Translations under genes and position numbers: made by a program
Source: Oligoflexales bacterium
GTDB taxonomy: Bacteria; Bdellovibrionota_B; Oligoflexia; Oligoflexales; JALZUQ01
Direction: 5' to 3'
Assembly: GCA_023301465.1 (NCBI GenBank)
Contig: JALZUQ010000035.1
Coordinates: forward strand, 1 to 64,000
Length of the DNA: 64,000 bases
Shown here: positions 1,977-5,590 of the stretch, piece by piece
Position numbering within the stretch: the stretch's first letter is position 1
Layout of the letters: every line of letters begins with the position of its first letter
Notes under the pieces: generated by a model
Databases searched by the model: none
Seen by the model: the letters and a program-made list of their open reading frames with translations, nothing else
What the model was told of the DNA's origin: nothing

Positions 1977-2705
1977 CTAGTTAAGCAGCCCAACTTCTTT
2001 TAGATCGTTTAACTGAGATTCACTTATTTTGGACGTGGTTGGATCTTGTAAATATTTGTAAACATTTTCTTCTATGCAATATAAATCTGGCTCATGTTGA
2101 AGTTCATTTCTAACAAATAATAAATACTGAGTTTCTTTATCAGGTCGAACATTTGTTGGTTGGTTTTTATCGTTTTTTGATGCTTCAACAGCCTTAGCAA
2201 TATTGAATTCTTGCTTTAACGCACGAAATGGTTTTTTGGTAAAAACTAAAGATTTACCTGAAATCTGATCAACACTAGCCTTACACATATCTAAAACAGC
2301 ATCTTCAAAACTTAAAAGATCTTTTAACCAAACTGAATATTCTTGAAATACATGATGGTTTAAGTTGTTTTTAATACACTCAAGAAACTGTCTAGAATAT
2401 TCATTTTTACCATTATGATCACTGCTAATACGAATAGCTGATGGTTCATATACAACCTGCCAAAAATCATATAATGCACCATTATCAATAAATCGAAATA
2501 AATTTGGTAGTCGCTTCCAAAGATCGTCCCAACGACCTTCTGCTTGCTCGTTTCCGTATTTATTAAGTTCTTCATCGTTTTTGAGTGATTCAATTGTGTT
2601 TTTTTGTAAACTATTCAAACCATCAAATAAAAGACTATCAGCTAATTCAAACCCAACTGGTTGACGAATTAACATACTCACACTTTTTAGTAGTGCATCA
2701 TTCAT
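1977..2705 (-). CDS. Orphan protein translationally coupled to the MNIO gene; putative RiPP partner/recognition protein
   Basis: 242-aa ORF; its ATG overlaps the MNIO stop (ATGA at 2702-2705). Its position matches the partner protein in other DUF692 RiPP operons, but no family was recognised. Confidence 0.6.
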   Translation of the reverse strand: MNDALLKSVSMLIRQPVGFELADSLLFDGLNSLQKNTIESLKNDEELNKYGNEQAEGRWDDLWKRLPNLFRFIDNGALYDFWQVVYEPSAIRISSDHNGKNEYSRQFLECIKNNLNHHVFQEYSVWLKDLLSFEDAVLDMCKASVDQISGKSLVFTKKPFRALKQEFNIAKAVEASKNDKNQPTNVRPDKETQYLLFVRNELQHEPDLYCIEENVYKYLQDPTTSKISESQLNDLKEVGLLN

Positions 2706-3574
2706 ACTACAGACACCCCACTTTTCATTTGATTTAAAGCATTAGGGTAAATAGTTATATCTGATTGATTTAGTATATTATTTGCAATATTTACTTCATG
2801 AATGAGTTCATTAAAGGTTGGAATATTTTGATCTCTTTCTACAATCGTAAATTGAGGTTTCTTTTTTGTAACTAGGTATTCATATAAATCCCATACAGGT
2901 TTTGGTATATTACTCCCGTGGGAATCATAAAGCACACCATCTTCTTCGCTGCCACCAGCAAGGTGTACACCCTCTACAGAGCCGAGATTAATTTCATCAA
3001 TCCATTTATAGGGATCGAAACCAAAATTAACACTATTAATATAGGTATTTGCAAGATCCATAATCATCTTACACCCAGTTTTTTCTAAGACTTTATTTAT
3101 AAATTCAGTTTCACTATATGGGCAATTAGGAACTATAAATCTATTGGTAATATTTTCTATAAGAAACGGAACCTGAACTTGATCTTGAATTCTTGAAATG
3201 TTTTCACACACTCCATTAAAAACATTATCTGTCCAAGGCAAAGTAGTTAACTGCCCCATCTCAATTCCATTGTACTTTGTAAAGCATAAGTGATCGCTAT
3301 AAAAAACGGTGTTCACCTGATTCATAACATCTTTGATTTTATCAAGATGGCTCTGATGAAACTCACCGACCGAACCAACCGACATTTCCACACTATGAAT
3401 AACAACTGGCACATTTGACCGTTGAAGCGTTTCAAGAAAAGAGGCTTTCTTACCAAAGAAAAAACTCTCCGGAATAAGCTCAATTAAAGGAAGTTGACTA
3501 ATCAGGTCATCCACTCCTTCTGTATTTGCGATTTCAAATGGCAGTTCTAAACCAACACCGAATTGTTTATCCAT
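2702..3574 (-). CDS. DUF692 / MNIO-family multinuclear non-haem iron-dependent oxidative enzyme (MbnB/TglH-like fold)
   Basis: Motifs VIHSVEMSVGS, FYSDHLCF, FLIENITNRF, CKMIMDLANTYINSVN, GVHLAGG, DSHGSNIPKPVW, TIVERDQNIP match the DUF692 pattern of metal-binding His/Glu/Asp/Asn residues. Confidence 0.9.
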   Translation of the reverse strand: MDKQFGVGLELPFEIANTEGVDDLISQLPLIELIPESFFFGKKASFLETLQRSNVPVVIHSVEMSVGSVGEFHQSHLDKIKDVMNQVNTVFYSDHLCFTKYNGIEMGQLTTLPWTDNVFNGVCENISRIQDQVQVPFLIENITNRFIVPNCPYSETEFINKVLEKTGCKMIMDLANTYINSVNFGFDPYKWIDEINLGSVEGVHLAGGSEEDGVLYDSHGSNIPKPVWDLYEYLVTKKKPQFTIVERDQNIPTFNELIHEVNIANNILNQSDITIYPNALNQMKSGVSVV

Positions 3575-3608: not shown

Positions 3609-3642
3609 GGTGTCATAAGTAGATTACTCAACTCATGACACC
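3609..3642 (-). promoter_or_regulatory. Hairpin in precursor-MNIO intergenic region (possible attenuator or processing structure)
   Basis: GGTGTCAT (3609-3616) / ATGACACC (3635-3642), 8-bp perfect arms with 18-nt loop. Confidence 0.45.
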
Positions 3643-3653
3643 ATCTACTAAGT

Positions 3654-3675
3654 TAGACAAACTTAGGATTGTCTA
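3654..3675 (-). promoter_or_regulatory. Hairpin spanning the precursor stop codon
   Basis: TAGACAA (3654-3660) / TTGTCTA (3669-3675), 7-bp perfect arms, 8-nt loop; includes the TAG stop of the precursor. Confidence 0.4.
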
Positions 3676-3807
3676 GCGACGACCGCATCTACGACCACAT
3701 CTACGACCACATTTACGACCGCATTTACGACCGCATCTACGACCGCATCTTGCAGCAGTAGTTTTTCCAGCTTCTGTGTTACCTGATAACGTGTTTAACT
3801 TGATCAT
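3673..3807 (-). CDS. Small RiPP-like precursor peptide with six tandem CGR(R/K) units
   Basis: 44 aa: MIKLNTLSGNTEAGKTTAAR CGRR CGRK CGRK CGRR CGRR CGRR*. Strong Shine-Dalgarno (ACGGAGGATAGAGTAATG). Lies between the ABC exporter and MNIO genes, same strand. Confidence 0.85.
   Translation of the reverse strand: MIKLNTLSGNTEAGKTTAARCGRRCGRKCGRKCGRRCGRRCGRR
3676..3747 (-). repeat. Six 12-bp tandem repeats (consensus TGYGGTCGTARA) encoding the CGR(R/K) core
   Basis: Directly visible: TGCGGTCGTAGA, TGCGGTCGTAAA, TGCGGTCGTAAA, TGTGGTCGTAGA, TGTGGTCGTAGA, TGCGGTCGTCGC. Confidence 0.95.
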
Positions 3808-3829: not shown

Positions 3830-5590
3830 TTAAATATATCTGTTCGATTCATCTGCAGTTGAATCGGCAAGATTGGGATTAATGTTCGAGACTTTTGAAG
3901 ACTCGAAATGAACATGATGATCTACATCCAAATTTTTTGGAGCAATATGAGAAACAAGACAAATTGATTTATCTTGTTTTATTTTATTGAGAGCATCTAC
4001 TACGTAGTTCACACTTAAATCATCCAGAGAAGCAAATGGTTCATCAAGAAGTAATATATTTCGATCGCTTAATAATGCACGAGCTAAGGAAATTCTATAC
4101 TTTTCACCTTCACTCAAATTTTTTCCTTGATCATGGATTAATGAATTTAACCCACCTTTATCCTTAAATCGCGGCATTAAGTTTAGTTGCTCAAGAACAT
4201 CAAGAAGTTCTTTCTCAGAGTAATCCTGACCTAACTCTATGTTCTCTCTTAGGGTGCCTTGAAACAAAAATGGAACTTGTTCAACATATGCAGCAAGTTT
4301 TGTAGGTAAGTAGTTGCCTTTTATTCCATGGTAACTAGAAGAGAATAAATTTTGTGTGCTGACTTTCATCGACGTAAAATCAGCACTACGCAAACCACTC
4401 AGAAACTCTAGAAAAGTTGATTTACCACAACCGGAGTGACCTTGAATTAACGTTGTTTTACCGTTTTTTAATGCAAAATTAAACGGCTCCATCAGCATCA
4501 AACCGTCAGTGGTATGCAACTGAATATTTTTAATTTCAATACTACAAACTTGATTATTATCTAAAAGATGATCTAGATCTTGATAAATTTCTTGCTTTGG
4601 AGGTTGAAGCAACAATGCAAGTCTTCCACCTTCAATAAAGTAAAGATTCCAATCAAAAATAGAACCAATCAATGAAAGAGCACTTGAATAAAACATTCCA
4701 ATATAAAAAGGAAAAACAAGAACTTCACTCAATCCAAGTTGACCTTGATTTAGAGACCATGCAGCTCCAGACAAACAAACCGTTAAAAGAACTTGAGACA
4801 CAAAAGAATTCGCACCCATTAATGACCCAATGATTTTCGCAACTTTCATGCTTGAAAAAATAAGACTGTCAATTTTATTTTTGAATTTTTTGTTCATAAA
4901 AGACTCTGCCGAAAAAGTTCGTACCGTTCGAAAACCTTCATAGTTTTCCATAAAGCCTTGAAATATTTCACCGTGAGTTGTTCTTAATGATTCTAAAAGT
5001 GGATTTACTTTGGTTTGAATCCACAGGTTAAGAAATGCAACTAAACTTGCAGTTATCAAACATATTGTCGCAGCAAGAGGACTATGAATATAAAAAAGAA
5101 TCGTAATTCCAATTACGGTGACAAAGCTCTGAATTTGAGAAGGTATGCTTACCGTTATGAAGTCTTGAGCACTCCGTAAGTCCATAGACAAACGAGTCAA
5201 CCAATCTCCACGTTGACTTTCGTCAAACGATCGAGCATTTGATTTTTGTATGGATTGTAATGCTTGTATTCTAAGACTTGCTTCGACCTTTAATGTCAAC
5301 CACTCCTCTACAATTTGACTAACCACTGATGAAACTAACAAACACCCAGCAATTACTAGACCAAAAACAATTAATGGTTTTAATAAACTAGATACATCTA
5401 GGGTTTGTCCATTTGCAATTAAGGTTGCACCATCGGTAAAGTAAATCAAAAGTCTCGGGGGTAAAAGCCCAACCAACGAACCCAGTGCTCCAATAACAAT
5501 TGCTAAACAATAACGTGATCCAAGTTGGGATACTTGTGATTTTAGGAGTTTTAAAGAAGCGGTTGTTTGTGGTGTGTGACTAAGTTTCAT
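3830..5590 (-). CDS. ABC transporter, fused permease and ATPase; putative peptide exporter of the RiPP-like cluster (no N-terminal C39 peptidase)
   Basis: Walker A GHSGCGKST, signature LSEGEKYRISLARALL, Walker B NILLLDEP, N-terminal TM domain; stop lies 22 bp upstream of the precursor start. Confidence 0.85.
   Translation of the reverse strand: MKLSHTPQTTASLKLLKSQVSQLGSRYCLAIVIGALGSLVGLLPPRLLIYFTDGATLIANGQTLDVSSLLKPLIVFGLVIAGCLLVSSVVSQIVEEWLTLKVEASLRIQALQSIQKSNARSFDESQRGDWLTRLSMDLRSAQDFITVSIPSQIQSFVTVIGITILFYIHSPLAATICLITASLVAFLNLWIQTKVNPLLESLRTTHGEIFQGFMENYEGFRTVRTFSAESFMNKKFKNKIDSLIFSSMKVAKIIGSLMGANSFVSQVLLTVCLSGAAWSLNQGQLGLSEVLVFPFYIGMFYSSALSLIGSIFDWNLYFIEGGRLALLLQPPKQEIYQDLDHLLDNNQVCSIEIKNIQLHTTDGLMLMEPFNFALKNGKTTLIQGHSGCGKSTFLEFLSGLRSADFTSMKVSTQNLFSSSYHGIKGNYLPTKLAAYVEQVPFLFQGTLRENIELGQDYSEKELLDVLEQLNLMPRFKDKGGLNSLIHDQGKNLSEGEKYRISLARALLSDRNILLLDEPFASLDDLSVNYVVDALNKIKQDKSICLVSHIAPKNLDVDHHVHFESSKVSNINPNLADSTADESNRYI

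Follow-up and report, generated by a model that had tools for sequence, protein, structure and literature searches.

A highly diverged, probable MNIO partner protein of the DUF2063-RRE/TglI superfamily in a cysteine-repeat peptide cassette of an Oligoflexales bacterium

In the TglHI complex, TglI docks on two TglH loops through its helical N-terminal domain and holds the peptide with its C-terminal RRE; alone it is insoluble, and the complex is required for activity (PMC10880893). TglI ends at residue 269 (PMC9016710). MNIO-PME1 pairs convert the Cys of Lys-Cys-Gly repeats to 5-thiooxazole, with the loss of four H per Cys (PMC13097082). A second group of partners, PME-type 2, is described by Antoine et al. 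2025 (PMC12452194) as DUF2063-like proteins that are missed by Pfam and tied to precursors without a Sec signal, having an N-terminal helical domain that is followed in some members by an RRE-fold domain.

The locus described here lies in a 64,000-nucleotide stretch from an Oligoflexales bacterium (contig JALZUQ010000035.1, positions 1 to 64,000; hereafter the window), on the minus strand of which an ABC exporter, a Cys-repeat precursor, an MNIO and a partner protein are encoded in that order. The exporter (3830..5590, minus strand; 586 aa) is a fused permease and ATPase (PF00664 and PF00005), and the precursor (3673..3807, minus strand) is a 44-aa peptide, MIKLNTLSGNTEAGKTTAARCGRRCGRKCGRKCGRRCGRRCGRR, containing six Cys, one every 4 residues. 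The MNIO (2702..3574, minus strand; 290 aa) matches PF05114 at 1.5e-71, its nearest NCBIfam models being BufB (211.8 bits) and HvfB (172.2 bits), each under its cut-off, and keeps all of the family-invariant candidate iron ligands (H60, H95, E140, N176, H204, D217, H219 and E246), those among them that bind iron being assumed from family knowledge. The last gene (1977..2705, minus strand), which starts with an ATG at 2705 and encodes 242 aa, very probably specifies a non-catalytic subunit of this MNIO and a highly diverged, PME-type 2 member of the DUF2063-RRE/TglI superfamily.

Among 58 genomes of the phylum, the partner was found only in the window's genome and in two others, an Oligoflexales MAG (G001, corresponding to JALZUO010000105.1; 51% identity) and a 'Deltaproteobacteria' bog MAG (G040, corresponding to PLEQ01000397.1; 28% identity). 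The order of exporter, precursor or precursors, MNIO and partner is identical in 3/3 genomes, with the ABC exporter conserved in every cassette. When 84,980 species genomes were scanned with patterns from the alignment of these three orthologues (the trio), nothing beyond the G001 and G040 orthologues was returned; requiring one of two conserved motifs, the scan would let more diverged relatives escape. No match was obtained in genome contigs with the single partner sequence, in viral contigs with the partner and the MNIO alignments, or in the plasmid collection with the partner as tblastn query. The host genome encodes three MNIOs but only two DUF2063 genes. Each of these neighbours one of the two MNIOs outside the cassette, where a BufA-like precursor is also encoded; the third MNIO stands alone without a DUF2063 neighbour, and by elimination the partner fills the vacant DUF2063 slot.

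The first-pass annotation had placed the start of the 242-aa protein inside the MNIO stop codon, and this is borne out: four bases, ATGA (2702..2705, minus strand), are shared by the MNIO stop and the partner start, the minus-strand junction reading ...TCT GTA GTATGA ATGATG... and the MNIO ending in S-V-V-TGA. The ATGA overlap is also present in both orthologous loci, and so in 3/3 known loci (L002 in G001, MNIO 632-1504 and partner 1501-2241; L003 in G040, minus strand, MNIO end 2172 and partner start 2175). Stoichiometric co-translation, which had been read from it, stands only in part, as the overlap is compatible with translational coupling but is no proof of stoichiometry, and 4-base overlaps also occur in ordinary BufB-BufC pairs of the host genome and the phylum (L009, 5211-5214; L022; L018). 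Comparison with the G001 orthologue over 242 aligned codons, with 87, 64 and 134 differences at codon positions 1, 2 and 3, indicates that the partner ORF is under coding constraint.

The partner has no match in Pfam, NCBIfam or PDB sequences, and PF09836 (DUF2063) matches none of the three orthologues even at E 10; the two BufCs of the same genome match it at 1.9e-14 and 1.1e-7. An unrelated housekeeping family, named at first pass as the match that would speak against a partner role, was not found. When the trio profile was compared in hhalign with 25 DUF2063-RRE (BufC-type) partners from MNIO loci of phylum genomes and plasmids, the local alignment gave E 1.6e-4 over 170 columns and the global alignment E 2.1e-5 over 224 colinear columns, with a hhalign probability of only ~51%. 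None of 400 column-shuffled profiles, which averaged 13.0 (sd 2.3) and peaked at 24.1, reached the score of 34.3, and a reversed trio profile scored 10.7. Of 60 window ORFs, the partner came first with an HMMER model of BufC (E 1.9e-4; runner-up 0.044), and the homology rests on this result and the trio profile because hhalign, given the single window sequence and the BufC profile, ranked it third of 60, not set apart from other ORFs. The trio-conserved motif ELNKYGxxQAxGR aligns in hhalign with the Tyr/Arg-bearing helix of DUF2063, FExAxL with the 'l.d.a.lE.a' segment and LLFVR with an RRE strand. When MAFFT was used to align the trio with BufCs, the N-terminal half came out misaligned, and this alignment was left out of folding. 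The initial impression that the protein is unlike DUF2063 is therefore correct for Pfam but not for profile-profile comparison, in which the similarity to DUF2063-RRE partners is colinear and full-length.

These comparisons bear on two other readings of the gene. It is very improbable that the partner is a separate tailoring enzyme for a second modification step rather than a structural partner: the trio has zero invariant Cys or His, making catalysis unlikely, the similarity to non-catalytic partners is colinear and full-length, and the cassette offers no other partner candidate, although inserted genes without an assigned function do occur in some MNIO cassettes (adjamnio-VI; PMC12452194). 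Convergence of an unrelated new fold on leader binding and MNIO partnership would suit the lack of a direct sequence match, the low model confidence and a second fold search without a clear match, but is the least probable of the readings considered, since the profile score lies far beyond the 400 shuffles and the reversed control and the alignment is colinear over nearly the full length.

A subunit of the DUF2063-RRE/TglI type is also suggested by the Foldseek comparison that the first-pass annotation had proposed. With an AlphaFold model of the window partner (pLDDT 50.9, three-sequence alignment) as query against 350,542 PDB chains, 8hi7_A ranked first (prob 0.97, E 0.013) and 8hci_A second (prob 0.95, E 0.032), the next fold match having E 1.5 and the others, among the matches listed, prob <=0.11. 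At 269 and 268 residues, both top chains are those of TglI, the TglH chain being the one with 304. With the model of the G040 orthologue (pLDDT 47.5, again from a three-sequence alignment), 8hi7_A ranked 15th (prob 0.16). The TglI fold match is thus suggestive and unreplicated by the second model, and weighs less than the profile comparison.

The models and alignments point to two domains. A predicted helical, DUF2063-like N-terminal domain (approximately residues 1-154, with an inferred boundary; 2244..2705, minus strand) is drawn from the trio alignment, hhalign and the low-confidence AF2 model, and agrees with predicted secondary structure at pLDDT ~50; the ELNKYGxxQAxGR motif lies within it. 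The predicted C-terminal RRE-like domain (approximately residues 155-242; 1980..2243, minus strand) is drawn from AF2 secondary structure of low pLDDT, with strands at 193-199 and 206-211 and helices at 213-220 and 229-237 in the window model, and strands at 158-163, 168-173, 196-201 and 208-212 and helices at 215-230 and 235-243 in the G040 model. In both models, at pLDDT ~50, the C-terminal strands precede the helices, an order that fits the RRE (three strands, three helices) and is the reverse of that in MbnC (PMC12710340). An MbnC-like partner, with its C-terminal sheet in the MbnC order and MbnC-type docking, is for this reason very improbable; MbnC too is encoded beside an MNIO, and the short leader to which it binds likewise has no Sec signal (PMC12710340 and family knowledge), but no MbnC family match arose in the Pfam and NCBIfam searches and the fold search with the first model returned TglI instead. 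Between the identities initially suggested, a leader-binding RRE-like protein or an MbnC/TglI-like subunit, hhalign and Foldseek best support the TglI/RRE-like one, and the MbnC part is not upheld.

Assignment of the partner to PME-type 2 follows from its gene lying directly after the MNIO, the absence of a Pfam signature and a remote DUF2063/RRE-like similarity (hhalign, and the Foldseek match to TglI at 0.97, which the second model did not reproduce), and also from the precursor, which lacks a Sec signal, as PME-type 2 precursors are reported to do. Calling the protein an orphan or new was accordingly an overstatement, since Pfam-missed DUF2063-like partners are known as PME-type 2 from PMC12452194. 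It is a helper of a known kind and a diverged member of a known superfamily, but the cassette is uncommon. The main texts of the literature consulted contain no description of this subgroup, of its 44-54 aa Arg-rich precursor with a Cys every four residues or of the linked ABC exporter.

The partner resembles TglI of Pseudomonas syringae (8hi7, 8hci) in being its closest fold match with the first model, in length (242 vs 269 aa) and in the arrangement, predicted at low confidence, of a helical N-terminal and an RRE C-terminal domain. It differs in having ~12% identity to TglI in the structural alignment, in the lack of a PEARL ligase or other tgl genes, no PEARL-like gene being present in the cassettes, where the neighbours are ABC exporter, precursor and MNIO, and in substrates with 6-9 encoded Cys, in contrast to the one appended Cys of the tgl system. 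With BufC/PME-type 1 (PF09836; NGO1945, 3dee) it shares gene position and a colinear profile alignment over 224 columns, but it has no PF09836 match and carries its own conserved ELNKYGxxQAxGR motif, and the window precursor lacks the typical Sec signal of bufferins. The captophorins (fontiphorin, oxazolin and bufferins; PMC13097082) likewise have basic residue-Cys-Gly repeats encoded beside an MNIO and an RRE-type partner. The window repeat, however, is four residues long and Arg-rich, compared with EGKCG; the cassette has no Sec signal and no DoxX, with an ABC exporter instead; its partner lacks the DUF2063 signature; and modification of its peptide is a prediction only.

Every Cys of the window precursor sits in (R/K)-C-G, the C-terminal part consisting of (R/K)CGR repeats behind the leader MIKLNTLSGNTEAGKTTAA. 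Nine Cys, each in a CS or CG unit, occur in the G001 precursor. In G040, two precursor genes of 46 aa stand in tandem (L003:3182-3517), differing at few residues and with seven Cys each; in all precursors of the trio, which are 44-54 aa long, the Cys spacing is exactly four residues. A simple hydropathy test, which is not SignalP, found no strongly hydrophobic stretch in the precursors of the window, G001 or G040, in contrast to the host genome's own BufA, which has one. Between precursor and MNIO lies a strong hairpin without a T-run (3609..3642, minus strand; fold z -4.0, 0/200 shuffles), with a counterpart in the same gap of G001 (z -2.5) and none above chance in that of G040 (z -0.8). It is possibly a partial terminator or an RNA-processing stem, and may hold enzyme expression down relative to the precursor.

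By analogy with TglHI, a mechanism can be inferred in which complex formation would involve docking of the partner's helical N-terminal domain on the MNIO, helping to close the iron-bearing active site, and leader binding would involve the C-terminal winged-helix RRE holding MIKLNTLSGNTEAGKTTAA. The C-terminal (R/K)CGR repeats of the bound precursor would then pass by the iron centre, where the MNIO would oxidise their regularly spaced Cys, and the ABC exporter would secrete a product that may bind copper or another metal. The (R/K)-C-G setting of all the window precursor's Cys makes 5-thiooxazole, known from the K-C-G repeats of fontiphorin and oxazolin, the first guess for the modification, one with a slightly better than even chance of being right; this is countered by the phylogenetic position of the trio MNIOs, a long branch of their own that groups, weakly, with TIGR04222-associated actinobacterial enzymes (87/73) and not with the bufferin type. 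The cassette might even represent a new class of MNIO peptides, Arg-rich and ABC-exported, with an oxidised Cys at every fourth residue, a lineage-specific partner and a leader unlike known ones, although this is rather doubtful. If so, the exported peptide might serve as a polyvalent metal binder or else as a cationic antimicrobial, and its Cys might carry a modification other than 5-thiooxazole.

The present results indicate that MNIO partners can diverge far while gene position and, apparently, fold persist. Standard HMMs miss the partner in 3/3 genomes, so that DUF2063-based annotation pipelines will overlook such cassettes. The association of Sec-less precursors with PME-type 2 gains one independent case, and the compact four-gene system with a regular short substrate, in which six near-identical Cys sites occur within 44 aa, would be useful for studying how an MNIO and its partner move along repeated sites and the role of the RRE in directionality.

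No protease gene lies within the cassette, and no C39 peptidase domain was detected in the exporter. A match to a CGRR DNA pattern in a further genome (G053) was rejected as an Ala-Pro-Ala-Thr repeat protein in another frame, and matches in another (G054) were set aside as simple repeats with other codons. The plasmid MNIO loci yielded DUF2063 partners, one TglH-like enzyme and one TIGR04222 locus, with no close TglI homologue among them and hence no direct sequence bridge to TglI. The TglH-like MNIO (L053:2117-3744, Burkholderia stagnalis plasmid) shares 60% identity with TglH in the stretch compared and is followed directly by a methyltransferase in place of a TglI-like gene. Three PLSDB 'plasmids' are of chromosome size (L055, N. 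gonorrhoeae, 2.17 Mb; L056, Nonomuraea, 11.85 Mb; L059, Aeromonas caviae, 4.94 Mb) and are probably mislabelled chromosomes. In the two bufferin-type loci of the host genome (L009:4086-5723 and L010:7175-8787), BufC is just 170 and 164 aa long, too small for a full RRE, PME-type 1 being reported tightly at 250-260 aa.
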